Shown piece after piece: positions 2,294 through 23,074 of a stretch of 23,419 nt of DNA. Under the pieces are notes generated by a model that made no database searches, had not been told where the DNA came from, and was given only the letters and a program-made list of their open reading frames with translations. Made by a program: the position numbers and the translations under genes. Source of the stretch: a virus; the IMG/VR virus record IMGVR_UViG_3300035698_010301, positions 1-23,419 of that record. One strand, 5' to 3'. Position 1 is the first letter of the stretch. Each line of letters begins with the position of its first letter.

Positions 2294-2731
2294 CTATGCG
2301 TGTTGTCTGACGGAATTTCGCCACATCTCCGCGAGTCGCGGTGTGGCGTCGGAAAGTGTTGGGCGCATGAACGGACGGGCGGGGTAATGACGACCGCGCG
2401 TTTGATTTTTGCGTTCATTGCCTTTTAGGTTGTATTCGCGCCCGCCCCATTCGTGAGTGTGGGCAATGCCGCCAATCAGGCTTCTGGCGGGGCCAATAAC
2501 CGCGGACACGTCACCTACGCCGAATAAAATAGAGCGCTTGAGCGCCATGTTGTGGGTATAAGGCGGTGTTCCTGCGGCAGACGCAGCACTGACTTTGCGT
2601 TTACTGATTTTCCTGCGAGCCACGCCGCGGGTGTACGCAGCCTGTCTCATGAGCACTGAGCGAGCGGCGTTGCGGACGGGCCGTGCAATTGCCTTCGGAT
2701 TGAAATATTCACGGGTGGAAATATTTAGCAT
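2294..2731 (-). CDS. HK97 gp10-like head-tail/tail completion protein
   Basis: The product is 145 aa and basic. It ends in a conserved-looking block that includes THEWGG, RHYPARPFMRPTLSDATPRL and AEMWRNSV. The Y-P-A-R-P-F-M-R-P segment near the C-terminus is typical of HK97 gp10-like and Mu gpG-like virion morphogenesis proteins that act at the head-tail junction or in tail completion. The start overlaps the end of the upstream gene by seven bases, and a GAGGTGG ribosome site lies inside that gene. Its place directly before the tail tube gene matches the usual siphovirus order (adaptor, gp10-like, terminator, tube, or similar). The family call is good; the exact role is less certain. Confidence 0.75.
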   Translation of the reverse strand: MLNISTREYFNPKAIARPVRNAARSVLMRQAAYTRGVARRKISKRKVSAASAAGTPPYTHNMALKRSILFGVGDVSAVIGPARSLIGGIAHTHEWGGREYNLKGNERKNQTRGRHYPARPFMRPTLSDATPRLAEMWRNSVRQHA

Positions 2732-3159
2732 TGTCTGTCCACCTCGTATTCCAGATGGATCACGCTCAGGAATTGATTCTTTTCTCGGAGTGTCGCTGGA
2801 TCATAAACTGGCTCAACGCCAACGCTCTTCCAGGTTGCGGTTTCGGAATTGGCCGTGAGTTTCAGGCGCGAGAAATGGTTTGCAAGTTCTGTGACGAAAG
2901 AAACCAACGGATCGATGCTGGCATTCGATTTGTCATCGGGCCGAATTTGAACGCCGATATCCACGCCCATGCGGTGAACGTCTGAACCACGGGAGCGCAT
3001 GCTGATATCCAGTTCAGCCGGGGCAACAGTCACATGGAGCGTTTCCATGTCCTTCAGTTTGAACTCAGGGACAGCCACGCGGACGGCAGTAAAAGCCATG
3101 GTGAAGTCAGCGCCGTTGATCGACGTTTTGACGGCTTCCGCGAGTTGGGTGATGGTCAT
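2725..3159 (-). CDS. Probable tail terminator / minor tail protein
   Basis: The product is 144 aa with an alpha/beta pattern: an N-terminal helix (TITQLAEAVKTSING), then strands and a helix at SIDPLVSFVTELANHFSRLKL, ending in LSVIHLEYEVDRQC. Size, a C-terminal strand ending in I-H-L-E-Y-E, and position between the head-tail adaptor and the gp10-like gene suggest the tail terminator (lambda gpU-like) group. These proteins cap the tail tube and join it to the head. The start ATG at 3159 overlaps the upstream stop as ATGA. I do not see a diagnostic motif, so the call rests mostly on gene order. Confidence 0.55.
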   Translation of the reverse strand: MTITQLAEAVKTSINGADFTMAFTAVRVAVPEFKLKDMETLHVTVAPAELDISMRSRGSDVHRMGVDIGVQIRPDDKSNASIDPLVSFVTELANHFSRLKLTANSETATWKSVGVEPVYDPATLREKNQFLSVIHLEYEVDRQC

Positions 3160-3527
3160 GAGTCGGCCCCCACAAATTTCGTGTGGATGCGGAAGATTTG
3201 CCTGTAGGGGTCGGCGTAGCGGAAAAGCGGCTCATCGGCGGGCGCCATGACCTCAAAGACCTTGTCAACGCCGTCGATGGTTTCAATGATTTCGTCGCCA
3301 CTTTCCGGCTCGTCAAACGCGGACAGAGCAGAGATGGCAATCAGGTAATCGCGTGAGTCGTATGTCTCGAACTGTCCGTATTCGTGCGAGACGCGGAATT
3401 TGGTTCTGCCGATGACGGCGGCGACGATCGCGGTTGTGGAGCTACGGCGGTAGGTAACGGAAATGGCGCGATGCGCGGCGTTTTGCGTGTTGAGCCAGTC
3501 GGACGCGGTTTTCAGGATATCGGTCAT
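3156..3527 (-). CDS. Head-tail adaptor / stopper-like protein
   Basis: The product is 123 aa. It has an N-terminal helix (ILKTASDWLNTQNAAH), then a beta-rich body with the pattern YDSRDYLIAISAL, a GDEIIET turn, DKVFEVMAP and a terminal RIHTKFVGADS. The P-x-x-GD-x-I...YEVMAP style is typical of small phage head-tail joining proteins such as HK97 gp9- and lambda FII-like stoppers. From memory very similar proteins occur in planctomycete-type prophages. Its ATG overlaps the stop of the upstream glycosyltransferase gene as ATGA. A structural gene is thus translationally coupled to a sugar-transfer gene. Confidence 0.65.
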   Translation of the reverse strand: MTDILKTASDWLNTQNAAHRAISVTYRRSSTTAIVAAVIGRTKFRVSHEYGQFETYDSRDYLIAISALSAFDEPESGDEIIETIDGVDKVFEVMAPADEPLFRYADPYRQIFRIHTKFVGADS

Positions 3528-5137
3528 GCCATGGCCTTTCTAACGAGAGAGGCCAGGACCTTGCCGTCGCGCCATTCGCCTTGGTTCCACTGGCGGCAGG
3601 CAAGCCGCTGCAGGTAGTTGCGGACCTTTGCTGTATCTGGGAGGTATCCGTCCAGCATGCGTTGAAAGTTGATCTGGAAGTCGGCAACGGACGTTTGCAG
3701 GGCGACGCCCGCCTTGGCGTAGACAGCGGGCCCAAAACACAGGACGGGGCAGCCCATCGCAAGGCATTCATTCCCTGCGTTGGAATTTATCATCACGGCA
3801 AACCGCGCCTGGGCAATGGCATCAACAATCGTGGGTTCAGTGCATCTAGGCATGTATTTGGCGAGTTTCTGCCGCGACACGGGGTGAGGGCGAAAGACCG
3901 CTTTCACTCCACGCGGGAGAGAACGCGCAACCATTTTTTCAAGCGGGGTTGACAGCTGAATTTCAGAATCGTCAAGTTGCGCATCACCCGCGACCTGGCC
4001 GATGACCAAAATATTACCGTGACGCTTGGTGAACGACTGAGGGGGGTAAGGCCAAACCGCGGTGAGGCGATCCGCGCCAGAAGTGGGAGCGGGACGGTTG
4101 AGGCTGTCCGTCCATGACGCCCAATGGAGAATGCCCGCGTGGTCGGCCTGGGTGTAGGCGCGGCGGTCGAAGAACCCGTGCTCTATGTGGATCGTAGGGA
4201 TATTGGCCTTGGCGGCAGAGTCGGCCCATTCGAGGTATTTTCCTTTACGCCCGTTCCAGATGACCATCAGGTCGGCTGTGGCAAGTTTTACCGGCGCCCC
4301 GAGGTCAGGCGCGTCAACCTCAAACCCGATACGTTCGAGCCCTTCCAGGATCGCGCGGAAGGGTTGTGTGTCGTCTCGCCGTTGGCAATCGAGCATCGGG
4401 AAAACGGCGCGCAGGCCGGAGAACTCGCCGACAGTCGGCACAACTCGCGGGGGTGAGGTCAGGTCGTGCTTGTTAGCGTTTGCCCAGAGGTGCATGACGA
4501 AAGGCAATTGACCGCATGTGGGGGCGATCCGGGCCGCGTAGTGGTCGCCGTTCTGGCGGCAGGCGTGGTATACGCCCACGGCCTCAGAAATAGAGGCTGG
4601 ATAAAAGAAGGGCCACGCGCCCAGTGTGATTTGATTCCGGTGTGTGCGGTAAAGTTTGGTGGTCAGAACTGGGCCAAAAGTGCAGCGGTCATATGGCGGG
4701 TTCGTAAGCGTGATTGCCCTGTTTATTTCAGCCCAAAGCGGATGGTCTGGGGTTGCCGCGAGAACGCCATTCGCAACCGTCAGGCGCGGGTTCATTTGCC
4801 CGTGCTGCTCGGTCATGAAAAACTTGGACCCGTCAAGCTGGTAGGCATTGGCGATGTCGTCAATGGGCCGGAACGGGGTAAAGTCGACGTCAAAATACCA
4901 TCCCCCGTGAGTTTGCAGGGCCGAATACCTAATCAAGTCAGCTTTGCTGCAAAGCCTGCTCGTGTGGTTGTAGGCGTAGGCATGCTCTGGCCGCAGAGCG
5001 TGTTCGTCATGGATCAGGATTTCGTAGTCCGGGTTGAGCTCCGCGAATCGTCTGACATTGCGAGCGGCCCATGTGGGCATGGGCTTGCCGCCAATCCAAA
5101 CAAAATTGATGATCTTAGGAATTCCGGTGTGGCTCAT
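3524..5137 (-). CDS. Bipartite glycosyltransferase: GT32-like domain plus capsule-synthesis-like domain
   Basis: The product is 537 aa from the ATG at 5137, which overlaps the upstream stop as ATGA; a longer start would run into the neighbour in another frame. Residues 1 to about 225 are a GT32/OCH1-like domain: IPKIINFVWIGGKPMP at 6-21, SKADLIRYSAL at 64-74, GGWYFDVDF at 78-86 with the metal-binding DxD (D83, D85), and a late histidine in VMHLWAN. Residues from about 245 to 537 resemble capsule polysaccharide (KpsS/KpsC-like) transferases: VIWNG, HIEHGFF, RPHP at 417-420 and a NSNAGNECLAMGCPVLCFG segment at 452-470. The protein therefore probably transfers two sugars. It is soluble, with no membrane segment. 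Substrate is unknown. It is the last gene of a three-gene sugar cassette inside the virion operon. Confidence 0.85.
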   Translation of the reverse strand: MSHTGIPKIINFVWIGGKPMPTWAARNVRRFAELNPDYEILIHDEHALRPEHAYAYNHTSRLCSKADLIRYSALQTHGGWYFDVDFTPFRPIDDIANAYQLDGSKFFMTEQHGQMNPRLTVANGVLAATPDHPLWAEINRAITLTNPPYDRCTFGPVLTTKLYRTHRNQITLGAWPFFYPASISEAVGVYHACRQNGDHYAARIAPTCGQLPFVMHLWANANKHDLTSPPRVVPTVGEFSGLRAVFPMLDCQRRDDTQPFRAILEGLERIGFEVDAPDLGAPVKLATADLMVIWNGRKGKYLEWADSAAKANIPTIHIEHGFFDRRAYTQADHAGILHWASWTDSLNRPAPTSGADRLTAVWPYPPQSFTKRHGNILVIGQVAGDAQLDDSEIQLSTPLEKMVARSLPRGVKAVFRPHPVSRQKLAKYMPRCTEPTIVDAIAQARFAVMINSNAGNECLAMGCPVLCFGPAVYAKAGVALQTSVADFQINFQRMLDGYLPDTAKVRNYLQRLACRQWNQGEWRDGKVLASLVRKAMA

Positions 5138-5991
5138 AGTCGTTTGGCCCCCTCCAACGCCATCCACTTGAGTGCGCCGAGTGGTGAGGCGTAATCCATC
5201 CAGACGTATTTGTTTTGGATGTGGGCGGTCGCCCATCGTTTGCGCAGGTCGGAATCCCATTCCGAGCGAAGCTCTTCTGGGGTGGTCGCGTAGCTGATAA
5301 CGACGCGGTTGGCGATTTCTGGCGGGATCGCGTGTTGACCTTTGGGGACAACCGGAATGCGGCCAGCGGCCAGTGTTTCATAGAGGCGATAGCTGAATCG
5401 GCCCACGCCTGGGGGGCACAACACAAAATGGGACTCCCGAATCATGCCCAGGAAAGCGCCCGTGCCCGGGTGAGCAAATTTGGCGCGGGTCGTCAGACGG
5501 AAATCAACGGCGCTGGTATCACGAAACGCTTCAATCATTGCAGCGCGGCATTCTGGGCGATTTGCAACGCCGCAAAAGCTCACAACCGGGCATTCCGTCC
5601 GTTCGACAAGCCCAAAGTTCAGCCCGAGGGTCTCTTTTCTAGGCCATGCAGGATAAACAACTGTGTTGGCATACGGGGTGGGTGTGGGTGAGCGCTTGAA
5701 CACGAGGGGAACGCCGTCATGTGAGCGGGTGTTGGCGTCGTCCCAAGGGTCAAACAGAATATCGGCATTGCTGGCGGGGTGAAGTGCAACGCGGAATCCG
5801 TCAGGGTCATAGCGCCAGTAATCGCGGGCGTCGGTCCATTGTTTTTCGCTGGCGACGGCGTCTCCAAATAATTCAATGGCCGCGCCTTTTGAGTAGTCAT
5901 CGCCTGTTGCGACGGCGCGTAAAACCAACGACGTAGGCCACGCCACGCCATGACACAAATCAAAATTGACAGGGATCGGGAGATCACACAT
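5134..5991 (-). CDS. Exostosin-like glycosyltransferase (GT47 family)
   Basis: The product is 285 aa from the ATG at 5991, whose first bases overlap the end of the methyltransferase gene by eight bases; a longer frame extends upstream but overlaps that gene heavily. The C-terminal half carries the exostosin signature: SFCGVANRPECRAAMIEAF at 138-156, then SHFVLCPPGVGRFSYRLYE at 187-205 and LAAGRIPVVPKG at 207-218, where a glutamate (E205) near the donor site is conserved in the family. The N-terminal half contains IELFGDA and DILFDPWDD. GT47-type enzymes transfer sugars using nucleotide-sugar donors. Acceptor and product here are unknown. The stop overlaps the next gene's start as ATGA, so the two transferases are probably made together. 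Confidence 0.85.
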   Translation of the reverse strand: MCDLPIPVNFDLCHGVAWPTSLVLRAVATGDDYSKGAAIELFGDAVASEKQWTDARDYWRYDPDGFRVALHPASNADILFDPWDDANTRSHDGVPLVFKRSPTPTPYANTVVYPAWPRKETLGLNFGLVERTECPVVSFCGVANRPECRAAMIEAFRDTSAVDFRLTTRAKFAHPGTGAFLGMIRESHFVLCPPGVGRFSYRLYETLAAGRIPVVPKGQHAIPPEIANRVVISYATTPEELRSEWDSDLRKRWATAHIQNKYVWMDYASPLGALKWMALEGAKRL

Positions 5992-6601
5992 AGCGCCAGA
6001 ACCTCCCCACGGTTTGGACGCCGAATCCGCGACGGTCGGCGATTTCGTGAACGGCTTTGGCAACGCCCGCAGGCTCCCATTCGTAGTCATCGTCACAAAT
6101 GATTGAGCGGGGAAAAAGCGCGATCGCGTGTTCCACGTCGCGCTTGACAGCGGCATAGGAATGGTCGGCGTCAATGTAAACGACGGCGGGAATTACGTGC
6201 TGTGAAACCGCGCGCATGCCAGAACAAGAATCATCCTGGACCGTTACCACACGATCGATGTGCCCGGCACGGGCCACGTTGACGCGGTAAAGGTCCAGCA
6301 TGGTGTTCTCGGACGTGACCCGGCCTTCGGATATCCAGCGTGACCAATACGACTTCGTGTATTCGCTGAAGTTTGAGTTCCAAAGGTCCACGGCGACAAG
6401 GCGCAAGCCCGGAAACTCATCCAACAAAAACAGAGAGGTCTTGCCCGTCCACGCGCCGACCTCAAGAACGATGGGGTCTGTGAGGCGGGAAAGGGTGTCA
6501 CGCCATGCGTCTTCGTGCAGCACCCACCCATGGACATAGGGGTCCATGGCCGGAAGCGAGTCCGGCCACGGGCATTGTGTTTTGAGTGAGTTCCAGGACA
6601 T
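5984..6601 (-). CDS. Class I SAM-dependent methyltransferase (Methyltransf_24-like)
   Basis: The product is 205 aa. Motif I is VLEVGAWTGKTSLFL (45-59), with the acidic end of strand 2 at VAVDLWNSN (D72). The later block PAVVYIDADHSYAAVKRDVE (139-158) followed by SIICDDDYEW (166-175) matches the Methyltransf_24 group. That group includes sugar and cephalosporin-type methyltransferases and is common in polysaccharide clusters. The acidic cluster IDADH...CDDDY probably binds a metal. The start at 6601 lies five bases after the decoration gene stop; the stop overlaps the GT47 gene. Capping or decorating a glycan by O-methylation is the likely role given the neighbours, but the substrate cannot be read from sequence. 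Confidence 0.85.
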   Translation of the reverse strand: MSWNSLKTQCPWPDSLPAMDPYVHGWVLHEDAWRDTLSRLTDPIVLEVGAWTGKTSLFLLDEFPGLRLVAVDLWNSNFSEYTKSYWSRWISEGRVTSENTMLDLYRVNVARAGHIDRVVTVQDDSCSGMRAVSQHVIPAVVYIDADHSYAAVKRDVEHAIALFPRSIICDDDYEWEPAGVAKAVHEIADRRGFGVQTVGRFWRYV

Positions 6602-6606
6602 GGCGC

Positions 6607-6939
6607 CTACTGGTTGAGATTGATGTCAACGGTGGTGTCGTCGGCGTCCGCAGCGCCAACGCTTTTTCCGATGAGCTTGTTGGACCCAGCGGTAGTTGTG
6701 GGGATTTCGTTTTCCGCGTCCCAATAGCAATTCACACCGTCTGCGATCGCGCTGGAGGAAGTGGCGGCTTTTACAAAGGCAAACACCCCGGCAACGGTCA
6801 CGGAGCCCTTGGTATTGGCCGCGATATCTTTTTTTGCAACAGCCACAGTGTCACCAATGACAATCACATCACCCGCGGATACGGCAGTTCCGGGGGTGTA
6901 ATCAATCGAGTCGCCGTCTTGCACAAAAGTTGCAGACAT
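6607..6939 (-). CDS. DUF2190-like capsid decoration protein
   Basis: The product is 110 aa. A beta-rich pattern of TAVSAGDVIVIGDTVAVAKKDIAANTKG followed by SVTVAGVFAFVKA and a C-terminal DTTVDINLN strand is characteristic of the DUF2190 family, found immediately beside major capsid genes and regarded as capsid decoration or head-stabilising proteins. The start at 6939 has AAGGAG seven bases upstream, a strong ribosome site fitting a protein needed in many copies. It follows the capsid fusion gene after a 74-base gap with a GC-rich hairpin. It is also the gene directly upstream of the glycan cassette, which makes it one candidate surface protein for modification. Confidence 0.85.
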   Translation of the reverse strand: MSATFVQDGDSIDYTPGTAVSAGDVIVIGDTVAVAKKDIAANTKGSVTVAGVFAFVKAATSSSAIADGVNCYWDAENEIPTTTAGSNKLIGKSVGAADADDTTVDINLNQ

Positions 6940-6980
6940 TTGGTTTTCTCCTTACGGAAGAGGGTTACAGGTCAAAGTCA

Positions 6981-7001
6981 GGGGCGGGGGAAACCCGCCC
7001 C
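6981..7001 (-). terminator. GC-rich hairpin downstream of the major capsid gene
   Basis: GGGGCGGG and CCCGCCCC pair perfectly over 8 bp around a 5-base loop, 12 bases after the capsid stop. No T-run follows on the minus strand, so this may be an RNA-stabilising or attenuating structure and not a simple terminator. Confidence 0.45.
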
Positions 7002-7013
7002 GTTGTGGTTCGC

Positions 7014-9104
7014 TTACGCGCCGGCCATCTTCACGCCAGCGCGGTATTCCTGCTGTGCGACACCAAAGTCGTGATAACCACGCATCTGGATGCCGAGCAC
7101 GTTGAAGTCGGCGTCGGCGCTCTCGACGGTCGGGGTCTGTTTCCCGTTCAGGAATGCAACCTCGATAACCGGGAGCGTTTTGGGGTCTGCGAGCAGATAC
7201 CACGCAGCGGCTGAGTAGCCGGTGATGCTGGAGCTGCTGAGGTAGCTGGTCTTGGCCACCTGGAACTTGCCAGCGTGCGGGTTGCTGATGGGTGCCTTGG
7301 TGCTGGCTGTGGTGTCTCGGATTTCCAGCGACTTCATCAACGCGGTCGCGGTGACGAACAGCGCGTTTGGAACCAAGAGAATGGCCGGGTCGACGCCAAG
7401 CGGGTCGCCGTCCGGGTCGGTTTGATTCAGGAACAACAGTTCGGCGGCGGTAAGAGCATTCACGCCCAGGGCGGTGCTGGCGCCACTGGCGTAGTTGCTG
7501 TTTCCGCTCGCAAAGAACGTTGAGTTGTCCATGAACGCGGTCCAGAAGACCTTGTTGAGCTTGAGGGCGGCGCCGCGACCAATGCGCTGGGGAAGCGCGG
7601 ACAAAGCGCCGAGGTCGTCGTTGATGATGTCCTGCCGGGTGATGGCGAACATCCGGCCATAGGTTTTGGCCTGGTTGGTGTAGGATTCCTCGTCCACGGT
7701 TCCGTGGGTGAGTTCACCGCCTGCGCCCACTTCGGCATACTCCATGTTGCCAGTGAGGCGGTACGAGGTGATGGCCTTGAAGTCGTTCACGGCGCGAATG
7801 GCCGCGATGGATCGCCAAGAGTCCTCGACACCGTTGAACCCGGCCAGCAAAAACTTGTTGGCGGTGTTGCCAAGAATCCCGGACAGCCCGACGGTTGAGA
7901 ACGCAGCGCGAAGAACGCCCCGTTCGTCGCGCCGGTAAGAATTCCCGGCGTAGCCGCTCATTCGGGCGGCTTCAAGCAGAAGCTCTTGCAGTCCGATGCG
8001 GCCCTTGAAAGCCTTGTGCGCGGCCTCCAGTGTGGGCGCTTCAAACTGATCCTCGGATTTGTCGAGCCCGCCAGCCTGGCACAGCGCGGCCTCCAGGATT
8101 TCTGGGGTGCTTGCGACATTGGCGCCACTGCGAACCGCCGGGGCTTTGGGGTGCGAGGCGCGGAGCAAAGCCAATTCGGTAGCGTCCGCAGTCCAACCTT
8201 CCGCAATGGCGTTGGCCTGAATCTCGTCGAGTTTGTCGACGTTGCCTTCGGTGCTGTACTTCGCACACAGAGCGTTGACGGCGTTGATGCGTTTGGCGTC
8301 GGCGGCGACTTGCGCGCGCATCTCAGCCACGGGGTCAACGGCGGGATCGGGATTCGCGGCGGCCTGAACGGGCTTGGCCGGTTCCGGCTTGATCGCGGTC
8401 TGCTTGTTGGCAGCAGCCTCAATCTCTGCGTCGTAAATCAAACGCATTGCGGCTTCCTGCTCTTTGCTGATTTCACCGGGCGTGAAGCCCTTGGCTTGTA
8501 GCCACTTCTCAAAAGGCATATCGAACTCCTCCTGCTGGTTGGCGGCGGAAGCCGCGACACGCGCGGAAGTCTTGTCGTCCGCGCCAAACGTGACAAACGA
8601 GATTTCGTACAACTGCGACTTGCGAGCGATATAAATCGGGCCGTCAAATTTCTGGCCGTTGCATTCGCCGGATTGCCCCTCGGAGATAAAGTCAACCTTG
8701 GTAGTCCTGACACCAACGGACGCTTGCCAGGGAAAGCCGTTGGCGCTGGAGCTTGCGACTTCGCGCGCAACGGTCCCCGCGCCAGACACAACGCCATTGG
8801 CAGTAATCCGGTTGTCTGTGATTTCAACTGCGGTGGTGTGGCCCACGACAAGGCTTGGGATGTGGTCTTTGATAACTGCTATGCTCTTCGCCGCTGGCTT
8901 GACTCCGGCCAGGTCAATCACGACGGGGTAGGGCCACCACGCGATGAGCATCGCGCCCCCGGTGTAGGCTTTGATTGAAAAGGTTTTGAGCGTCTTTTCT
9001 TCGCCTGCGGCGGCTTGGATATCTGCAAACTCGACCGGGCCGGTCAGATCGAGCGGCCGCTCGGTCAATTTGCGGGCGGCGAGAATCGGGGGGAATTGGT
9101 TCAT
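7014..9104 (-). CDS. Prohead protease / scaffold / major capsid protein fusion
   Basis: The product is 696 aa in one frame. Residues 1 to about 190 are a prohead protease of the Mu-I/HK97 serine type: a histidine in VIKDHIPSLVVGH (H81), then GFPWQASVG with the likely nucleophile S129, and YEISFVTFGADDKTS. Residues about 195-330 are a charged, helical, Ala/Glu-rich scaffold-like region. Residues about 340-696 are the capsid protein: MSGYAGNSYRRDERG, YRLTGNMEYAEVGAGGELTHG, ITRQDIINDDLGAL, then NPHAGKF and MRGYHDFG near the C-terminus. Protease-capsid fusions of this kind are a recognised annotation class. The start overlaps the portal stop as ATGA. A strong ribosome site before M196 (8519) suggests a second, 501-aa product with scaffold plus capsid but no protease, which would explain how capsid subunits outnumber protease. 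Confidence 0.92.
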   Translation of the reverse strand: MNQFPPILAARKLTERPLDLTGPVEFADIQAAAGEEKTLKTFSIKAYTGGAMLIAWWPYPVVIDLAGVKPAAKSIAVIKDHIPSLVVGHTTAVEITDNRITANGVVSGAGTVAREVASSSANGFPWQASVGVRTTKVDFISEGQSGECNGQKFDGPIYIARKSQLYEISFVTFGADDKTSARVAASAANQQEEFDMPFEKWLQAKGFTPGEISKEQEAAMRLIYDAEIEAAANKQTAIKPEPAKPVQAAANPDPAVDPVAEMRAQVAADAKRINAVNALCAKYSTEGNVDKLDEIQANAIAEGWTADATELALLRASHPKAPAVRSGANVASTPEILEAALCQAGGLDKSEDQFEAPTLEAAHKAFKGRIGLQELLLEAARMSGYAGNSYRRDERGVLRAAFSTVGLSGILGNTANKFLLAGFNGVEDSWRSIAAIRAVNDFKAITSYRLTGNMEYAEVGAGGELTHGTVDEESYTNQAKTYGRMFAITRQDIINDDLGALSALPQRIGRGAALKLNKVFWTAFMDNSTFFASGNSNYASGASTALGVNALTAAELLFLNQTDPDGDPLGVDPAILLVPNALFVTATALMKSLEIRDTTASTKAPISNPHAGKFQVAKTSYLSSSSITGYSAAAWYLLADPKTLPVIEVAFLNGKQTPTVESADADFNVLGIQMRGYHDFGVAQQEYRAGVKMAGA
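8517..8533 (-). promoter_or_regulatory. Internal ribosome binding site and in-frame start inside the capsid fusion gene
   Basis: AGGAGGAG at 8526..8533 is followed after six bases by ATG at 8517..8519, in frame with the fusion. It lies exactly at the junction between protease and scaffold domains (residue 196, MPFEKWLQAKGF). The Shine-Dalgarno is near-perfect and in ideal position. The predicted product spans 7014..8519 and is 501 aa. Confidence 0.75.
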
Positions 9105-10525
9105 TTGGCGGGTTCCTCCTGCGTGGCAGGCTGGGGAAGTTTTTTCTCTTGCTCGATATCGAATTGGCGTTCTCTGTATCGCTGCAATCGCTGTGTTTCC
9201 CAGTCCTGGCCATTCGACGCGTAGAACGTGTCGTAATTCAGCAGGTCGGCATCTTTGAGAACACGGGCCGCATTGGCTTCTTTCAGCGGGTCAACATGCG
9301 GGCGACGCGGCCAAAAATAGCGGTGTGGCATGGAGGGATTGATAACTCGGAAAGTCTGCGGCAGGAAACCCTCGACCAGTGACGCTTCGCGGGTAAACTG
9401 ATACAGGGCAGAGTCAAGCGCGATAACGTCAATCTCAGAGCGGTCAACGCCTATCTGCATGTCGTAGGTCTGATGGTCGAGGCGGCCAGAAGCGTAGTTG
9501 TAATCGGAGGAATCACAGGCAGCGATGTTGTAGGGAATGCTCATGCAGCGGGCGATTTCGGTCACGATCTCGCGTTTGAACATCTGGTATGTGGTGGACG
9601 GCTGCTCTGCCCGGATTTGGCCGAGCTTGTAGCCAGCGGGCAGGGTGGTCATCATGCGCTTTTCGAGCGCCATGACGTTGAAGTCGTCGTCTTCGTCATA
9701 ATCGTCGGATGACCCAGCGGCGGTGGCTTCCAAAACGGCTGCAAAGTCGGCGGCGGTTTCAGCAGCGGCCAGAACCGCGAGTGTGAACCTGCGGAGTTGG
9801 GCAAACAGGGGAAGCGCAGGCGTGATTTCAGGTACGCCTCGGTGTTGCCCGGGGCGGTCTTCGCGGAACAGATGAATCACATGATCCGCGACGATCCGGT
9901 CATATTTGGTAGAGCCGATAATTGAGTCTGAGCCGGGGTGTTCTCGCAGGACGTGATATTTAAACGGATTCCCAAACGCGTCAAATTCAATGCCGTCCAC
10001 CGCGTTCGTGGCGTCAAACGCGAGGTCTGGGGTTGTGACCTGGTCACACTCAATGAGCTTGAGGTCAAGCTTGACTGGACCTGAAAGCCGTGGGTTGGTT
10101 ACCCAAAGGGCAAAGGCCTCACCGTCACAAATACGAGCCTTTGCCATCGTTCGGAGTTTGCTGGCAAGGTGAATCTGACGAGCCCAACCCATAAACAGGG
10201 CTTCAAACGTCGAATTGGCCTTGCTGTCGGGCGTCAGGAGTTGCAGTCGAGGGCCCACGCCAACGGTGTCATTGGCTACTGTCTGGGTTATTCCGCGCGC
10301 ATAGCAGTTATTTGCAACCTCATATCGAGCACGTTTGCGCAGATACTTGCGAACACTCAGGGAGTTTGATGCGTCGGCGCTCAGTTCATCTGCGTTCGAC
10401 CAGTGGCGCACGTTGTCAGTGGTGGTTTGGGCCGCGTCGTATTTGGCCTGGACCGCGTGGTTGACGCGAGGTTTTGTAGCCTGCGTCATGGGCTTGCCGT
10501 ATTGGTCAAGGATGCTGTTTGCCAT
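9101..10525 (-). CDS. Lambda-type portal protein
   Basis: The product is 474 aa. It has the lambda gpB-like portal pattern: LRKRARYEVANNCYARGITQ near residue 65, GVGPRLQLL, DGEAFALWVTNP, IECDQVTTPD, ADHVIHLFREDRPGQHRGVP and CMSIPYNIAACDSSDYNYAS. The last block (GVPEI...SSDYNYASGR) is diagnostic of this portal family. The portal dodecamer forms the vertex through which DNA is packaged and to which the tail joins. The C-terminal tail is charged (RQFDIEQEKKLPQP). Its ATG overlaps the preceding stop by one base (TAATG) and its stop overlaps the capsid fusion start as ATGA, so portal and protease-capsid synthesis are coupled. Length fits the family. Confidence 0.95.
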   Translation of the reverse strand: MANSILDQYGKPMTQATKPRVNHAVQAKYDAAQTTTDNVRHWSNADELSADASNSLSVRKYLRKRARYEVANNCYARGITQTVANDTVGVGPRLQLLTPDSKANSTFEALFMGWARQIHLASKLRTMAKARICDGEAFALWVTNPRLSGPVKLDLKLIECDQVTTPDLAFDATNAVDGIEFDAFGNPFKYHVLREHPGSDSIIGSTKYDRIVADHVIHLFREDRPGQHRGVPEITPALPLFAQLRRFTLAVLAAAETAADFAAVLEATAAGSSDDYDEDDDFNVMALEKRMMTTLPAGYKLGQIRAEQPSTTYQMFKREIVTEIARCMSIPYNIAACDSSDYNYASGRLDHQTYDMQIGVDRSEIDVIALDSALYQFTREASLVEGFLPQTFRVINPSMPHRYFWPRRPHVDPLKEANAARVLKDADLLNYDTFYASNGQDWETQRLQRYRERQFDIEQEKKLPQPATQEEPAK

Positions 10526-10722
10526 TAGGCTGTGCCCGGCGGCTTGAGTTGGTTGAAGCGCATGCCCTTGTGCACTTTGGCGACTGCACGATTTGATGCG
10601 AGGTATCTATCCACTTCAACGAGGTCTTTGAGCGGGTGGGCTTCCATTTCCCCCTGGTCGCCCTTGGCGCTTTTTGGTGCGGCTGCGGCTTCTTCGATGG
10701 TCGAGTCAAGCGCTTCGGTCAT
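10525..10722 (-). CDS. Small protein in the gpW (head completion) position
   Basis: The product is 65 aa from the ATG at 10722; an alternative ATG at 10789..10791 adds 23 residues that are encoded by a strong inverted repeat and so look non-coding. The C-terminal half reads HPLKDLVEVDRYLASNRAVA then a basic MRFNQLKPPGTA end. A small helical protein with a K/P-rich tail between large terminase and portal occupies the place of lambda gpW, which joins head and tail. I recall similar small proteins in other prophages but see no proof of the gpW fold. No strong Shine-Dalgarno precedes the chosen start, so the structured leader upstream may matter for its translation. Confidence 0.6.
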   Translation of the reverse strand: MTEALDSTIEEAAAAPKSAKGDQGEMEAHPLKDLVEVDRYLASNRAVAKVHKGMRFNQLKPPGTA

Positions 10723-13767: not shown

Positions 13768-13813
13768 ACAGGTACTCCCGAAAAGAAAGTTTGTAGTCTT
13801 TGATGCCTACTTC

Positions 13814-13843
13814 CCTGGCCCGAAACAAGCAAAAAGGGCCAGG
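13814..13843 (-). terminator. Hairpin CCTGGCCC/GGGCCAGG with T-rich loop
   Basis: A perfect 8-bp stem with a 14-base loop containing five T on the minus strand. It is the second of two consecutive hairpins in the 120-base gap between 13768 and 13887. Confidence 0.4.
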
Positions 13844-13848
13844 AAGGA

Positions 13849-13880
13849 CCCAAAGGGCGGGCTTACACCCGCCCCTTGGG
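13849..13880 (-). terminator. 13-bp GC-rich hairpin after the gene at 13888
   Basis: CCCAAAGGGCGGG and CCCGCCCCTTGGG pair over 13 bp with one mismatch around a 6-base loop, eight bases beyond the upstream gene's stop. On the minus strand the next bases are TCCTTCC and then the T-rich loop of the following hairpin. The pair probably marks the end of the replication-side transcript before the packaging genes. Confidence 0.55.
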
Positions 13881-13887
13881 CGCCCGG

Positions 13888-14328
13888 TTACTTGGCCGCG
13901 CGGATGTCCTTCAGGCACAGGGCAACAATCAGCTCAACGGTTTTCCATCGATCGGAGGGCATGCCGAGTAGCATCTCTGCCGTTGTCAGCGAGTATAGCC
14001 ACCGCTCAACGAGCGAACGCTGGACCGCATAGTCCGCGCTCTCCAGATCCTTGAAGTCCAGCATTTTTTGCGCGGATTGCCCACGGCTAGACTGTTCAAG
14101 TTCGAGCGCGTCAAGCGATTCCACGAGCGCCTTTGCCGTTTTGGTGAGATCCTTCAGCCGCTCCATGGCTGCTACCATCTCCCCACGCAATGCAGCCGCG
14201 TTGAACACGCGTTCCCAAGCGGGCACCTGTATACTATGCGGATCAGGCTCAATCGCCTCACCGTCAGGCCCAACGCCCTCGGGCATTTGCTGCTGTTCCG
14301 GCTCTACCGTCTGCGTTGCTGTCGTCAT
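13888..14328 (-). CDS. Hypothetical protein, helical, acidic N-terminus
   Basis: The product is 146 aa from the ATG at 14328, which overlaps the resolvase stop as ATGA and has AAGGAG upstream; a longer frame to 14628 has no such support. The first 35 residues are Gln/Glu/Pro-rich and probably disordered. The rest is helical: an amphipathic stretch (ALRGEMVAAMERLKDLTKTA) that could form a coiled coil, then LERW-like LVERWLYSLTTAEMLLGM, a basic SDRWKT and a hydrophobic VELIVALCLKDIR end. I do not recognise a family. It is the last gene before a double hairpin and sits upstream of the terminase side, so a small terminase or a packaging helper is conceivable but unproven. Confidence 0.7.
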   Translation of the reverse strand: MTTATQTVEPEQQQMPEGVGPDGEAIEPDPHSIQVPAWERVFNAAALRGEMVAAMERLKDLTKTAKALVESLDALELEQSSRGQSAQKMLDFKDLESADYAVQRSLVERWLYSLTTAEMLLGMPSDRWKTVELIVALCLKDIRAAK

Positions 14329-14837
14329 ACTGCTCTCCTTTCTCTGCCATACAGCGGACGCGCGCCGATGCTGTCCGCAAAAGTGACGGCCACTCCCAGG
14401 GCCGCCCAAAGGTCTGCCTTGAATCCATACAGCGGGCCCGGCTGCGCCTTCGTCCCCACGGCCGGGGTCTTGCCCCCGCCTGTCGCTGGGAAGAGGTCCA
14501 TCAACGCAGCCCGGATGTTTGAGTCTTTGGCTTTGCATTGGCCGCACACGGCAAGCTTTACCTCGCGACGGTACACGAGCACTGCCGGGGTACTCCCGCG
14601 CCATGCCTCCTGAAACCGCCCAACCCAACGAGCCGTGTCAAACACGGTCGCGCCAACGGCCATGCCATAGCAGGCAACCATCTCGATTGCGCACAGGTCG
14701 CAACCTCTGCCGTCCGCAACAACCTGCTTGATGGTTTCATTGTCCGCGAGGTCTTTGCTGGTTACTCGGTGGGTTTCCGTGTCATAGGCCACATAGGCGG
14801 TTCGCACGTTTCCCGGGTCCAGCGCGAGAATTTTCAT
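14325..14837 (-). CDS. RuvC-like Holliday junction resolvase
   Basis: The product is 170 aa. It opens with MKILALDPGNVRTAYVAYD, the classical first strand of RuvC-type RNase H folds (D7). A second acidic site is the glutamate of CAIEMVACYGMAVG (E52), followed by the helix TVFDTARWVGRF. The C-terminal GFKADLWAALGVAV supplies the late aspartate (D142). These fit the D-E-D active site of RuvC. Phages use such resolvases to trim branched DNA before packaging. A central insertion, VCGQCKAKDSNIRAALMDLF then a Gly-Lys-rich loop, seems typical of phage versions. ATGA overlaps join it to both neighbours. Length fits the family. Confidence 0.85.
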   Translation of the reverse strand: MKILALDPGNVRTAYVAYDTETHRVTSKDLADNETIKQVVADGRGCDLCAIEMVACYGMAVGATVFDTARWVGRFQEAWRGSTPAVLVYRREVKLAVCGQCKAKDSNIRAALMDLFPATGGGKTPAVGTKAQPGPLYGFKADLWAALGVAVTFADSIGARPLYGRERRAV

Positions 14838-16557: not shown

Positions 16558-16826
16558 GCCTGTTTTCCCCCGGACACCCACACAAGGAGATGTTCATACG
16601 CATAGCCGTTGGGGTCCGCAAGCGGGTGTTCTTTACCAACTCGAATTTTTGGATAGCCGCCGCTTGACACGATTTTGCCAGTGTTCCACCTCCCGTGGTT
16701 TTGTCCACAGGCTTTTGTGTTCGACCCCCTTTTGTCTGGAAGTTGCTCTACGTCGCACCCAAGAGCCTTAGCTTCACGTGTGCGCAGGTAACGCGTCGTT
16801 CTGCTTACGGGTCCACGTTTACGCAT
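16554..16826 (-). pseudogene. HNH endonuclease N-terminal fragment
   Basis: The frame encodes 90 aa from the ATG at 16826, with AAGGGA upstream. The last third, GGYPKIRVGKEHPLADPNGY then AYEHLLVW, matches the conserved region that precedes the HNH motif in phage HNH homing endonucleases (HP-A-x-x-x-GYVYEH). The protein stops right after, at VSGGKQA, before any His-Asn-His site. The N-terminal part (MRKRGPVSRTTRYLRTREAK) looks like a small DNA-binding tail. It is therefore a truncated relic or a captured N-terminal domain. It is joined to the initiator by a GTGA overlap and overlaps the end of the DUF5131 gene by eight bases. Confidence 0.6.
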
Positions 16827-17658
16827 TGAACCATTCCCTTATTCTGAGGTCGGGTGGAAGTTCGTTGGTATGTTTGCGCATTTTGCCGTCAACTACCATT
16901 TGTTTCATCAGGAATTGCGTTCCAGCGGCAGCACACTGGTCCCGAACGGACCTGAACCGATCGGGGTGGCTCGGCCTCGCCTTGGGTCCGCTCTCGCCGC
17001 CCGCAATAATGAGGTCGAGGTCTGGAAACCCATAAAACGGGTCCATAAAACCCACCGCCCCCAGCGCGGGCTCGTAGCTCACGAATCGGTATGTGGCAGG
17101 TGTTTGCAGCAGGTGGGGAACGCGGATATCCGCCCAATGCTGATTCTCAGCCGTCACGCCAAGGGCCACGTTGGGAAGCGGCCAGCCATTGTCATGTTCC
17201 GAGTCCATGACCGTAAACTGACCGTCAATATCCAGTCCCTTCCCTTCTGGTGAAGTGTTCGCCATGCAATAATAAGTGGGGTCCGGCCAGGAAACGCTCT
17301 GTTCACCCACCCACGCAAACCACTCCGGCAACCGCTCGGCCCGCTTGGTCAGAACCATGAAAACGTGTTGTGGGCACGCCGCCATGACGCCAAACGCTGC
17401 AGCTATCTCTGCGTTGCTCACGTCTTCGTGAAACAAATCATTCCACACGGCCCACACGGTCGGCTTTTTGCGCCGCAGCGGGATATCCAGCCGGTCGTCT
17501 CGGAATTTTGGCGTCCAGTCCTTTTTGAACCGTCGCGCAATGTCCCGACTCCAACAATTCGCGCAACCCTCACTCACCGCCGTACACCCGTCAACCAGGC
17601 TCCACGGTCGGTCCCACCACTTGCCCGTTTCCAGTTCGCTCGGCCTAACTATTGGCAT
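16819..17658 (-). CDS. DUF5131 (phage Gp37/Gp68-like) protein
   Basis: The product is 279 aa from the ATG at 17658; a TTG start 24 bases further upstream is less likely. Features of the family: WWDRPWSLVDGCTAVSEGCANC at the N-terminus with C25, C32 and C35, LRRKKPTVWAVWNDLFHEDV, QHVFMVLTKRAERLPEW, LPNVALGVTAENQHWADIRV, RFVSYEPALGAV, LIIAGGESGPKARP and a terminal LMKQ segment. The triplet of cysteines and the TIM-barrel-like pattern suggest a metal or iron-sulphur centre, as proposed for this group; the biochemical activity is not established. It is common in phages and integrated elements. Here it lies between the SbcD-SbcC fusion and the HNH fragment. Confidence 0.88.
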   Translation of the reverse strand: MPIVRPSELETGKWWDRPWSLVDGCTAVSEGCANCWSRDIARRFKKDWTPKFRDDRLDIPLRRKKPTVWAVWNDLFHEDVSNAEIAAAFGVMAACPQHVFMVLTKRAERLPEWFAWVGEQSVSWPDPTYYCMANTSPEGKGLDIDGQFTVMDSEHDNGWPLPNVALGVTAENQHWADIRVPHLLQTPATYRFVSYEPALGAVGFMDPFYGFPDLDLIIAGGESGPKARPSHPDRFRSVRDQCAAAGTQFLMKQMVVDGKMRKHTNELPPDLRIREWFNA

Positions 17659-17699
17659 TTGCAATCTCTTTCGCAGAACCAAAATACGTCAAGATTCAT
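17649..17699 (-). CDS. Possible 16-aa leader peptide before DUF5131
   Basis: AAGGGA seven bases before the ATG at 17699 is a good ribosome site. The frame reads MNLDVFWFCERDCKCQ and its stop lies ten bases inside the DUF5131 gene, whose own ribosome site is weak. It could couple translation. It is short and may be chance. Confidence 0.3.
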   Translation of the reverse strand: MNLDVFWFCERDCKCQ

Positions 17700-17786: not shown

Positions 17787-20700
17787 TTACGCCGCCTCAA
17801 TTCGGATGACGCTTGGCAGTCCGGCCAACAATTCGCTGTTGTGACTGATGATGATTATCTGCCTAAACCACTTTTCCAAGCGCTCAAAAACTAACAACAT
17901 ACGAGCTGCGTTGTCTTCGTCCAGAGCGTCAAACGCCTCGTCGAAAATAAACACTTCGAGACGTCGGCCGCTTCGTTGCGCCTGGAGCGCGGAAAACGCG
18001 ATTCGGAGCACGGCCCTGAGTAGCTTTTTCTCTCCGCCTGAATAGGTCGAGATGTCGCGGACGCCCGCGCCATCGTCAACCAAAATGTTCAAAACCTCGC
18101 GGGAATCGCCGGTTTTGGTGGCTCCTACGGTTTGGATGTGGATTGCCCAACGCCCGTCAAACTCGCTCAACAGGTCGGCCAGGATGTCTTGAAACATGGG
18201 AAGGGCAGAGTCCACCACGAGTTGGGGGATACCGTCACGCCCAAACGCCTGCTGTAGCGTTTCGTAGACTGCGGCGGCCTCGGCAATGTCACAAAGCTTA
18301 GACTCGGCTTCACATTTCCTGACGTTCAGCGTTTCCAGTGCTGCGAGTTTGGCAGTAAATGCGCCACGTTCCTCGATGTGCGTTTCTTTGCTCTTTGTCG
18401 CGCCAGAGACTACGGATGTGATCCGTAGTTTGTCGGCGGTCAACGTGTCACGGGTCGCGCTCAAATCCACCATGCCACTGAGGCGAGTTTCAAACTCGGC
18501 AAGCTTCTGCCTCTGGCTATCGAGTGCGGCAGTAAGTTGGCTGAGTCGGCTTTTTACCGCGTCCAGGCTGGCTTGTACGCCTGACAGTCCTGCAAGTTCA
18601 GCCTCGGCTTTGCGGACGGTTTGCAGCGCGGTTTCGGTTGGGGTTGCGTCTGGCGCCACCGGCACCGCGGCGCGTTCGGCTTCCATTTTGGTTATGGTGG
18701 CAGTAAGCGCTTTCCCTTCGGCTACCATTTCCGGTGCTACGCTTTCGGCGGTGATTGTGACATTGCTAAGGGCTTTGAGGTCGTCTTCATATCCCATTTG
18801 CTCTGCGGCCAGATACGTCTTCGCTAAGTCTGATTCGCGCTGTGCCTCTGCAAGCGTGGCTTCGGTTCCAGGAATACCGTCTCGGGCCTGCCGGGCCGAT
18901 TCCGTGAGCGGACATTGCGCACACTCGGGCGCGCCCGGTATCCGTTCCATAAGCGCGGCTTGCTTTTGCAGGTCGGCAAGTTTGGTCTTGGCTTGCGCCA
19001 GCGCCAGTTGGGTTTGCCCTTGTCTCGCGCTCTGCTTCTTATTTATGGCCGCTAGTTGATTGGCGCATTCCTGGTATTTCTTCGTGGTTTTCCGTTGTCT
19101 TTCGGCCACGGCTTCGCGTACAAATTCCCGGAGCGCGTCGCGCTTGTCCTTGAGCTCTCCTATTTCGCTGGTGTCTTCGTCGCGTTTGGTTCGGTATGCG
19201 TCTGCCTGGGTCCTGATCGCCTGTAGTTCCTTTTCAAGGCCAGGGGCCTTGGCTGCTTCGGCCTCCAGCGCCCCGCGATTTGCCAGCATGCCCTGATACT
19301 CGGTAACCTGGCCGTTCAGTTTGGGCCCAAGGGTTTCGGCGTCGGCAAGGTCGGCCTTGAGTGTGGTGATCTGCGCCAAAAGCGCTTGGCGCGCCTCGTC
19401 GGCGTGGTTCAGTTCGGCCTCGCGTTGCGCAATCGCTGCCAGCGCGTCAGCTTGCGAGTCAATACGCTTCTCGTCGTTGGCAATGTGATAATTACATTCG
19501 GCAAGGTTTTCTCTGACCGTGTCAATGCCTGCGCTCTCAAGCTCCAGATCGGTAATCCGTTGCCGGAGCATGGCTGCTTCGCCCGTGACGCTCTGGCCCG
19601 CCTCCTTGGCGTCCTGGCGCAGGCGGCCAAGGCGTTCGGTTCCAAGCAACTTGGCCAGCAATTCCTTTCGTTCGCGTGGCGCTGCGTCGACCAGGTCGCC
19701 GCTCTGGCCCTGAGCGCTAAACACACTCGCCAGCATCAACGCGGAATCCCCAAACAACTCGCGGCATTTGGCGTCCACGTCGCTGCTCAAAGGTCCGGCA
19801 AGCGCTTTGCCGGAGCGGGTGATAAACGCCTTCTGACTGGCGGTCTTGCCAGATTTCGACCGGCTCAACTCGCGGCGGATGTTGACAATCTCTCCGGGTT
19901 CGCGCTCAAGCTCAACCGCAATCATTCCGCTGGTTTCGCCCGTGGTAATTTGGTCCATCAACCGGCCAGGACGGCTGGGGAACTCGCCAAAGATCGCGGC
20001 AAAGAACGCCTCGACCAGGAAGGTCTTGCCAGCGCCGTTGTGCCCGCAAAGCCCTGTCAGGCCTGGGTAGTCAGACAGAACGACTTTATAGCCTTTGTGG
20101 GTGCCGATGTTAACGAGCTTGATCCGGTTGATGCTGCGGATACACCCGAGGGCCCCACTCGTGGCCTCAACCTGTGTATCCAGCGCCAGCTTGGCCGCTC
20201 CGGTTTGCAGTGACTCAAGCGGAGTCTCGCACTCCGTGGCCTTATGCCAAGCGGCAAGCAGCGCCGGGATCGGTGTGTCGCCCGTCAGCACCTCATCGGT
20301 TCGGCTGTGAATCTCGACCGGCGCGGGCGTGGGCTGAAATACCGCGTTGGGCGCGAGCTCAAACGTAGGCCGCGTCTGCCCTACAATCCGCACATGATCC
20401 TGCGGCCGCGTGGTCTCTGGGTTGTAGTGCTCGCTGGCAACGGTGAAATAGCGCGGGGTGTCCAACTCAACGAAACGATCGGCAACAACTTTGCCGCCAT
20501 CAAAATCGATGACGCGGAATCCTGACGGGTTGCCATCGTCGCCGAAGTTGTGCTGGCAAAGCGCGCCCACGTAATACCCCTGGCGGCGGTGGCAATCGCC
20601 CAGCGCAATCACGTCCGCGCCTACGCTTTCAAGCTGCTGAGGCGTGAGCTCAAACGTGTTGCTTTTCAGACTGAACCCGCTGGCCGTGGTTGTGCCTGAC

Positions 20701-21239
20701 ACCACGCAATGGCCCATGAGGATTGACGGGACGCCTGCCGCTCTGGCTGTGTCTGCGGCTTTGCGCAACATCGCCAACGCGGAGTCAATCAGCTGCGTGT
20801 AGGCCGCGTGGGCATCTTCCGGGCTCATGCGTCTGTATTTGTCTATGATCATCATGTGGGCCGGGCTACACCACGGCAGGCAAAGCCAGCATATGTCCTG
20901 TGTGTGTGCGCCGGGCGCGTCGGCAACCGTGATACCGGGCTGGCCTCTCAAGATGGACAGGCTGTCGGTTTCATCGCCCGTGCCCTGGTCATGCTGGCCG
21001 GGGATGGCCATGATGGGGATGGGTTTTGCCGCCCGGGGCGCGGTAAACTCCTCCACAACCTGGCCCACGGTGGCGCGTCTGTGCGGGCAAATAAACGGGC
21101 TATGCCATGTATCACCCGCAAGGCCGATGACATGAACGTCGTTTGCTGCACACCAGTCGTACATCATGCGCCAAGCCCCGCCCCGTTCGGCCAGGTGGCG
21201 GTCCTCCAAATGTAAGTCGGCTCCTATCGCGATTCGCAT
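17787..21239 (-). CDS. Single-chain SbcD-SbcC (Mre11-Rad50) nuclease fusion
   Basis: One uninterrupted frame of 1150 aa. Residues 1 to about 300 are an SbcD/Mre11 phosphoesterase: GADLHLEDRH (D8, H10), GLAGDTWHS (D43), IPGQHD (H83), ILMGHCVVSG (H177) and IALGDCHRRQ (D215, H217). Residues about 366-1150 are SbcC/Rad50: INRIKLVNIGTHKGYKV, Walker A GHNGAGKT (399-406), a QGQSG loop near 511, coiled-coil arms of about 230 residues on each side of a zinc hook CAQC (773-776), the signature TYSGGEKK (1065-1072), Walker B FIFDEAFDALD (around 1098-1108) and an IIIISHNSELL switch. The complex processes DNA ends and hairpins and resembles T4 gp46/gp47, normally two proteins. The fusion enforces equal amounts. 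A GGAGG-rich leader precedes the start. Confidence 0.93.
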   Translation of the reverse strand: MRIAIGADLHLEDRHLAERGGAWRMMYDWCAANDVHVIGLAGDTWHSPFICPHRRATVGQVVEEFTAPRAAKPIPIMAIPGQHDQGTGDETDSLSILRGQPGITVADAPGAHTQDICWLCLPWCSPAHMMIIDKYRRMSPEDAHAAYTQLIDSALAMLRKAADTARAAGVPSILMGHCVVSGTTTASGFSLKSNTFELTPQQLESVGADVIALGDCHRRQGYYVGALCQHNFGDDGNPSGFRVIDFDGGKVVADRFVELDTPRYFTVASEHYNPETTRPQDHVRIVGQTRPTFELAPNAVFQPTPAPVEIHSRTDEVLTGDTPIPALLAAWHKATECETPLESLQTGAAKLALDTQVEATSGALGCIRSINRIKLVNIGTHKGYKVVLSDYPGLTGLCGHNGAGKTFLVEAFFAAIFGEFPSRPGRLMDQITTGETSGMIAVELEREPGEIVNIRRELSRSKSGKTASQKAFITRSGKALAGPLSSDVDAKCRELFGDSALMLASVFSAQGQSGDLVDAAPRERKELLAKLLGTERLGRLRQDAKEAGQSVTGEAAMLRQRITDLELESAGIDTVRENLAECNYHIANDEKRIDSQADALAAIAQREAELNHADEARQALLAQITTLKADLADAETLGPKLNGQVTEYQGMLANRGALEAEAAKAPGLEKELQAIRTQADAYRTKRDEDTSEIGELKDKRDALREFVREAVAERQRKTTKKYQECANQLAAINKKQSARQGQTQLALAQAKTKLADLQKQAALMERIPGAPECAQCPLTESARQARDGIPGTEATLAEAQRESDLAKTYLAAEQMGYEDDLKALSNVTITAESVAPEMVAEGKALTATITKMEAERAAVPVAPDATPTETALQTVRKAEAELAGLSGVQASLDAVKSRLSQLTAALDSQRQKLAEFETRLSGMVDLSATRDTLTADKLRITSVVSGATKSKETHIEERGAFTAKLAALETLNVRKCEAESKLCDIAEAAAVYETLQQAFGRDGIPQLVVDSALPMFQDILADLLSEFDGRWAIHIQTVGATKTGDSREVLNILVDDGAGVRDISTYSGGEKKLLRAVLRIAFSALQAQRSGRRLEVFIFDEAFDALDEDNAARMLLVFERLEKWFRQIIIISHNSELLAGLPSVIRIEAA

Positions 21240-23063: not shown

Positions 23064-23074
23064 ATCATTTCCTT

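Follow-up and report, generated by a model that had tools for sequence, protein, structure and literature searches.

Why would a tailed phage keep three sugar-related enzymes among its head genes, and on what would these enzymes act? The question is raised by a viral sequence of 23,419 nucleotides (IMG/VR record IMGVR_UViG_3300035698_010301; the whole stretch analysed, hereafter the window), in which a methyltransferase and two glycosyltransferase genes lie between the genes for the decoration (cement) protein and the head-tail adaptor. Such an arrangement had been proposed in a sequence-only reading of the window, and both the Pfam assignments and the coordinates bear it out:

7014-9104, minus strand: major capsid protein (MCP) with a fused protease-like N-terminus (PF25209, 151.7 bits; phrog_4523, 'major head and protease protein')
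6607-6939, minus strand: decoration (cement) protein (PF09956, 78.6 bits)
5984-6601, minus strand: MTase, a SAM-dependent methyltransferase (Methyltransf_24; PF13578, 33.8 bits)
5134-5991, minus strand: GT47, an exostosin-like glycosyltransferase (PF03016, 31.5 bits, and predicted fold)
3524-5137, minus strand: GT32cap, a fusion of a GT32 and a Kdo-transferase-like domain (PF04488 and PF05159, both over cut-off)
3156-3527, minus strand: head-tail joining protein (joiner; PF25138, 108.9 bits)

The enzyme genes, in the order MTase, GT47, GT32cap from cement to joiner, are packed tightly against each other and against their structural neighbours. The junctions are exactly as first described: a 5-base gap between cement and MTase, an 8-base overlap between MTase and GT47, and ATGA overlaps at GT47/GT32cap and GT32cap/joiner, the joiner start codon overlapping the GT32cap stop. 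The suggestion that the cassette lacks its own promoter was likewise upheld, as no sigma-70-like consensus site was found on the cassette strand within positions 2700-10600; the single site in this interval (2.7 expected) is located on the opposite strand. At 57.6-58.5% GC, the cassette does not differ from the structural genes and thus bears no mark of recent foreign insertion, while conservation of the frames in relatives (31-57% identity) indicates that they are not open by chance. Serotype-converting modules of the gtrABC type place a membrane flippase and a bactoprenol glucosyltransferase beside the glycosyltransferase; the interval described here holds three enzymes only, with head genes on both sides.

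The largest of the three proteins, initially read as a single GT32/capsule-like transferase, belongs to both of these families but comprises two enzymes in one chain. Its N-terminal half (approximately residues 1-230) is a GT32-type GT-A domain matching Gly_transf_sug (PF04488, 35.8 bits; cut-off 23), with structural matches at Z 14-17 for the AF2 model (pLDDT 93.7) and a DXD motif, D83-x-D85, that is invariant in 23/23 sequences. The C-terminal half (approximately residues 240-537; PF05159, 31.7 bits) has the GT-B fold of KpsC and WbbB (Foldseek E 1.5e-9; for KpsC, VIA Z 17.3, rmsd 3.6 over 249 residues). Invariant in the same 23 sequences are the QXXXD motif Q381/D385, which includes the nucleophile Asp and aligns with the KpsC Asp160 segment, the HP motif H418-P419, the candidate base E319, aligned with the KpsC LEDGF segment, and H338, a candidate counterpart of the general acid His94. 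By fold and motifs, this half is predicted to be a retaining beta-Kdo-transferase-like enzyme, although likeness of fold leaves the substrate unspecified. No CMP-sugar synthetase over cut-off was detected in 17 records, and donors are therefore expected from the host.

The other two enzymes are less easily assigned. GT47 matches exostosin PF03016 just below the curated cut-off (31.5 bits versus 33.4; E 1.5e-7), and its AF2 model (pLDDT 86) resembles EXT1/EXT2 (Foldseek 1e-7) and AO75L (5e-6). The MTase contains a class I SAM domain (cut-off 26.3 bits; E 6.5e-8) in which E47-x-G49, D72, D144/H147 and D171/D172 are invariant among 6 sequences. Judging from its genomic context and from TylF-type sugar O-methyltransferases at the equivalent locus in relatives, it is probably a sugar O-methyltransferase.

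GT32cap was found in 25 distinct contigs and lies between cement (upstream) and joiner (downstream) in all 18 in which both neighbours are readable, with no contig contradicting this; the insertion between the same two structural genes that the sequence-only reading had proposed looking for is thus a recurrent one. Moreover, among the 18 contigs with a measured GT32cap/joiner junction, GT32cap runs into the joiner start in 16, in 12 of them exactly by ATGA/GTGA, and the 8-base overlap of MTase and GT47 is seen again in L009, L018, L094 and L169. Distances of GT32cap and of the capsid protein correlate equally strongly with those of the joiner (Mantel 0.47 and 0.46, respectively). We looked for the genes in variable accessory positions with separate promoters and found the core gene in one place in all readable relatives. 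What does vary is the set of genes ahead of it, which encode O-methyl-, pyruvyl- and GT2-type enzymes, that is, interchangeable sugar modifiers; of the three-gene set originally recognized, only GT32cap is constant, the MTase/GT47 pair not being fixed. Most capsid relatives have no cassette at all.

Beyond this group, 50,697 phage records searched at the DNA level returned no match, and for GT32cap a protein search yielded nothing more than weak GT32 matches, with none for GT47; near-identical records were further contigs of the same phage only. A full GT32cap fusion of apparently bacterial origin came from a sole MAG contig (L247), which is itself a phage head operon, and 388 genomes of the phylum of that MAG contained partial matches but no other full-length fusion. 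The host is probably Gram-negative.

Comparison of phages with and without the cassette reveals a candidate acceptor that goes with these genes. Residue 61 of the cement protein, in the loop KAATSSSAI, is serine in 25/25 cassette phages versus 4/106 phages without the cassette (p 5e-23), the top result of 22,230 column tests over cement, MCP and joiner. Nine supported independent contrasts were available, of which 8.8 pointed in the same direction and 0 against (p ~0.004), on a tree whose branches are long and whose support values were obtained by a quick method. Ser61 was the best of 110 cement columns, with more high-scoring columns close by, at 56-63 and 78-83; E78, for instance, follows the cassette in 7.4 of 9 contrasts. 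Serine and threonine are also more abundant in the cement proteins of cassette phages (17.5% versus 12.8%, p 4e-4). A sequence search for solved structures returned no close relative of the cement protein. The near confinement of Ser61 to cassette phages suggests a sugar coat made there by the virus itself, and the O-methylated glycan on the decoration protein, first raised as one of several possibilities, is favoured by this covariation over the other targets then listed.

The four phages with Ser61 but no cassette between cement and joiner are L090, L312, L313 and L404, the last of which has a GT25 gene elsewhere. In three contigs picked for having Ser61 and no visible cassette (L364, L332 and L259), the region directly after cement starts with MTase-GT2-like or GT2-like genes. 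A different gene follows cement directly in L032 and L338; L338, which is without Ser61 and whose gene has no Pfam match, was not counted as a cassette case.

Could Ser61 simply travel with the cassette? Cement and cassette genes are adjacent, and some of the covariation could stem from their joint transfer; cassette presence requires 7 changes when mapped on the cement tree, which is poorly resolved, versus 10 on the capsid tree. A single transferable module, in which Ser61 would be co-inherited but not serve as the acceptor, has a modest but real chance of being correct and fits any target of the enzymes. It sits poorly with the behaviour of most cement columns, which do not follow the cassette (mean 1.0 of 9 contrasts, sd 2.1), the signal being concentrated around Ser61. 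Unlikely, in our view, is that the glycan resides on another virion protein (joiner, capsid or tail), with Ser61 as a structural companion. Coupling links GT32cap to the joiner, and the serine and threonine content of the latter is slightly higher with the cassette (p 0.012); in mycobacteriophages, moreover, glycans have been reported on capsid and tail tube subunits, at their C-termini (PMC12619734). Yet the columns of MCP and joiner all fall well short of Ser61 (7e-14 for the best one in MCP), and the serine and threonine content of MCP and tail tube shows no rise with the cassette.

We consider it distinctly unlikely that the enzymes alter the LPS or capsule of the host late in infection, whether to keep progeny from being lost on debris or to prevent superinfection. 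Bacterial surface polysaccharides typically involve such families (KpsC-type Kdo transferases, PS_pyruvyl transferase and GT47/GT32 enzymes), Kdo is a sugar of LPS and capsule, and integrases in two records indicate that some relatives may be temperate; however, the coupling to head genes has been kept over large divergence, and an envelope target gives a serine of the decoration protein no reason to follow the cassette. Action on phage DNA or a small molecule, to which the match of the MTase to phrog_2675 ('DNA methyltransferase') and the existence of DNA-modifying phage glycosyltransferases (PMC12619734) might point, is very improbable given families and folds of polysaccharide/protein glycosyltransferases, the head-operon location and the Ser61 covariation.

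On balance, we favour the view that the cassette encodes an assembly line for a glycan, operating in the cytosol and translated together with the head genes, which would glycosylate the decoration protein. Its product would most likely be a Kdo-type, O-methylated glycan, with Ser61 as the probable attachment site. In a first step, the GT32-type domain would place a sugar on the decoration protein, at a serine that is most likely Ser61, although this domain could extend a glycan instead of initiating one. The GT-B domain of GT32cap would then add Kdo or a Kdo-like acid from the CMP-sugar pool of the host, by a double-displacement mechanism as in KpsC/WbbB; GT47 would extend the chain and the MTase would cap it by O-methylation. 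Any benefit might lie in shielding, particle stability or adsorption. Since relatives swap the last two steps for other modifiers, virion glycans would vary from phage to phage, much as O-antigens vary among bacteria. More tentatively, and as a proposal falling a little short of probable, the locus may represent a widespread modular virion-glycan locus of tailed phages, in which a joiner-coupled GT32/Kdo fusion O-glycosylates Ser61 and swappable neighbours (O-methyl, pyruvyl, YdjC-like deacetylase, GT2 and possibly sulfo enzymes) make the glycan phage-specific.

The literature surveyed describes phage-particle glycans in only a few cases. Should our view be correct, a whole group of uncultured phages would itself produce its surface sugars, within the cytosol of a probably Gram-negative host, from a locus diversifying like an O-antigen cluster and with one residue named as the attachment site. 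Ser61 would then serve as a genomic marker of glycosylated virions in metagenomes, and the question of why phages carry many glycosyltransferases would become experimentally testable.

A comparable head-operon insertion is already known, a precedent missed by the initial remark that no standard phage module with this set in this place is known. In the cluster J mycobacteriophages Omega, Thibault, LittleE and Courthouse, 8-10 genes separate the major capsid gene from the head-tail connector gene, including glycosyltransferases (one of them two-domain) and varying SAM methyltransferases, to which the published account assigns no role (PMC3706429). The place in the operon is nearly the same and the content likewise differs from phage to phage, but the hosts are mycobacteria, the BAKA capsid shows no decoration protein, and the published description reports no Kdo-type enzyme, joiner-coupled fixed core gene or covarying acceptor residue (PMC3706429). 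Virion glycosylation in mycobacteriophages such as Che8 also relies on phage-encoded glycosyltransferases and leaves glycans covalently on capsid proteins; the reported sites differ, being C-termini of capsid and tail tube subunits, and the genes of the Che8 relative Maravista are found close to the 3' end of its genome, outside the head operon (PMC12619734, PMC11256854). Among the phages studied here, C-terminal extensions of capsid and tail proteins were considered as acceptors and set aside, the tails being alike by eye and differing little in length.

In the chlorovirus PBCV-1, virus enzymes (A064R, A061L, A075L), most of them predicted to be soluble, make an O-methylated glycan on the capsid protein, and a multidomain protein combines two glycosyltransferases with a methyltransferase; unlike the present case, this is a eukaryotic algal virus with an N-linked glycan and dispersed genes (PMC9614988). 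The likeness of the GT47 model to AO75L, and of the GT-A half of GT32cap to a PBCV-1 capsid glycosyltransferase (2p73, Z 13.7), is one of fold only. KpsC and WbbB, with which the C-terminal half of GT32cap shares the fold, the QXXXD nucleophile and the HP motif, and probably further catalytic residues, act on capsule linker or O-antigen saccharides; the phage domain, unlike these enzymes, is fused to a GT32 domain and encoded within a head operon.

The window spans an entire IMG/VR virus record of 23,419 bases, probably part of a genome. The structural operon lies on its minus strand in the order terminase, portal, capsid (whose N-terminus is protease-like), cement (the capsid decoration protein, PF09956), methyltransferase (MTase), GT47, GT32cap, head-tail joiner (PF25138), more connector genes and tail tube. 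The four cassette junctions described in the sequence-only reading proved exact on re-measurement. The three cassette genes have the same GC content as their neighbours, and the sole sigma-70-like site in the cassette region lies on the opposite strand.

As single queries, the cassette proteins retrieved 10, 3 and 75 viral loci, and more were found with alignment queries. GT32cap, a fusion of GT32-type and KpsC/WbbB-like domains, was present on 25 distinct contigs (duplicates removed), flanked by cement before and joiner after in 18, by cement only in 4, by joiner only in 2 and by neither in 1 (L183); among these 25, none carried it outside the cement-joiner place. In 18 contigs its junction with the joiner gene was measured; 16 show an overlap, 12 of them as ATGA/GTGA, and the sequence distances of the two proteins are correlated (Mantel 0.47, p 2e-4), to a degree similar to those of capsid and joiner (0.46). 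Judging by this fixed place, the overlap and the correlated distances, GT32cap appears to have been a long-time companion of the head genes and not a recent insertion. Most capsid relatives have their joiner within about 6-100 bases after cement. The GT32cap-joiner pair of L177 (10-948) comes downstream of a major capsid protein from another family (GP7-like), suggesting that head modules have been exchanged around this pair.

The genes between cement and GT32cap differ among relatives. GT32cap stands almost alone in L168, L181 and L247; the other loci contain:

MTase and GT47: window, L167, L169, L185, L183; also L016 and L018, whose contigs stop before GT32cap
TylF-type methyltransferase: L010, L018, L170, L174, L177, L178, L183
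GT2 enzymes: L173, L176, L182, L186
Polysaccharide pyruvyl transferase-like: L176, L182
YdjC-like: L174
Nitroreductase: L176, L182
Radical SAM: L179
Family without a Pfam match, bearing a P-loop-like GTGRCGTRT motif: L176, L186

The last family reads like a sulfotransferase. The cement-joiner interval of L065 (2951-4625) holds, by eye, a gene that resembles trypsin-like proteases and has a signal-like start, together with a desaturase-like membrane protein rich in His; the site therefore also takes other cargo. Two phages without the glycan cassette carry related genes of a family with no Pfam match directly after cement (L032:6259-6978 and L338:8772-9464).

The AlphaFold2 model of GT32cap is confident (pLDDT 93.7). 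Residues 243-527 match the fold of KpsC (Z 17.3) and WbbB, while residues 2-225 match GT32/GT44-type GT-A enzymes (Z 14-17) and, more distantly, the PBCV-1 capsid glycosyltransferase 2p73 (Z 13.7). For KpsC, Glu66 is reported as base, His94 as acid and Asp160, within a QXXXD motif, as nucleophile, besides an HP motif (PMC10148158). Its nucleophile was located in the sequence via the PDB variants D160N and D160C, and in the profile alignment D385 of the window protein falls on Asp160. Across 23 sequences, Q381, D385, H418, P419, E319, H338, D83 and D85 do not vary. The GT47 model (pLDDT 86) matches EXT1/EXT2 and AO75L, a chlorovirus enzyme implicated in xylose addition to the capsid glycan (PMC9614988). 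A search of 17 records, many of which are fragments, gave no CMP-sugar synthetase (PF02348) that reached the cut-off.

In the search for an acceptor, structural proteins were compared between phages with and without the cassette. Serine plus threonine content was higher with the cassette in cement (0.175 vs 0.128, p 4e-4) and slightly so in the joiner (p 0.012), with no difference in capsid and tail tube. In a first cement alignment the column of Ser61 (KAATSSSAI in the window) was outstanding, with Ser in 21/21 cassette phages and Ser or Thr in 1/47 others, which usually have Gly, Val or Ala. With 152 loci added, Ser61 was found in 25/25 phages with the cassette and 4/106 without (p 5e-23), the negatives being drawn from capsid relatives ranked by similarity, and 26 of the 132 being excluded because of a gap in the loop at this column. 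The 25 include three contigs that stopped too early to reveal a cassette (L364, L332, L259), picked after Ser61 was seen and before the DNA behind was read; in each, the DNA after cement starts with MTase-GT2 or GT2 genes, as in known cassettes.

By the same p value, the next cement column was E78 (5e-17). The best capsid column reached 7e-14, a level attainable by shared ancestry alone. The covariation is statistical, and the adjacent cement and cassette genes may have moved jointly. A capsid tree requires 10 or more changes of the cassette label; over 9 pairs on supported branches, Ser61 follows the cassette in 8.8 on average and does the opposite in 0 (sign test, p about 0.004), the capsid and cement trees being made by a quick method and having long branches. 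Among the 110 columns of cement, Ser61 takes the top rank, and the other high-ranking ones lie mostly at 56-63 and 78-83. Ser61 occurs without the cassette in L090, L312, L313 and L404. The last has a GT25-family gene behind its tail genes (13807-14373), which could explain this exception. L274 (19393-20010) and L376 (about 19494-20045), phages with neither cassette nor Ser61, carry GT32-type genes at the distal end of their structural region, which thus represents a second location type for such enzymes.

Virion glycans of mycobacteriophages have been reported and are said to serve as a shield (PMC12619734, PMC11256854), and PBCV-1 encodes the enzymes for its O-methylated capsid glycan (PMC9614988). 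The cassette locus, known here from sequence alone, would work alike through different enzymes, its core gene being fixed, its periphery variable and one residue a candidate acceptor. A Lentisphaerae MAG contig offers a hint only as to the host.

Elsewhere on the minus strand of the window, 17787-21239 is a single open frame of 1150 residues with an N-terminal part that is phosphoesterase-like by eye and SbcC/Rad50-type ATPase motifs; its putative product resembles a fusion of SbcD and SbcC (Mre11-Rad50). A DUF5131 protein (16819-17682, 182 bits) is encoded within the phage replication part, and 21552-23195 encodes a Gp3-like 'recombination directionality factor-like' protein (PF18897), whose long tail is proline-rich and built of near-repeats (PSARPTPAPPAEPSARPTPAP).
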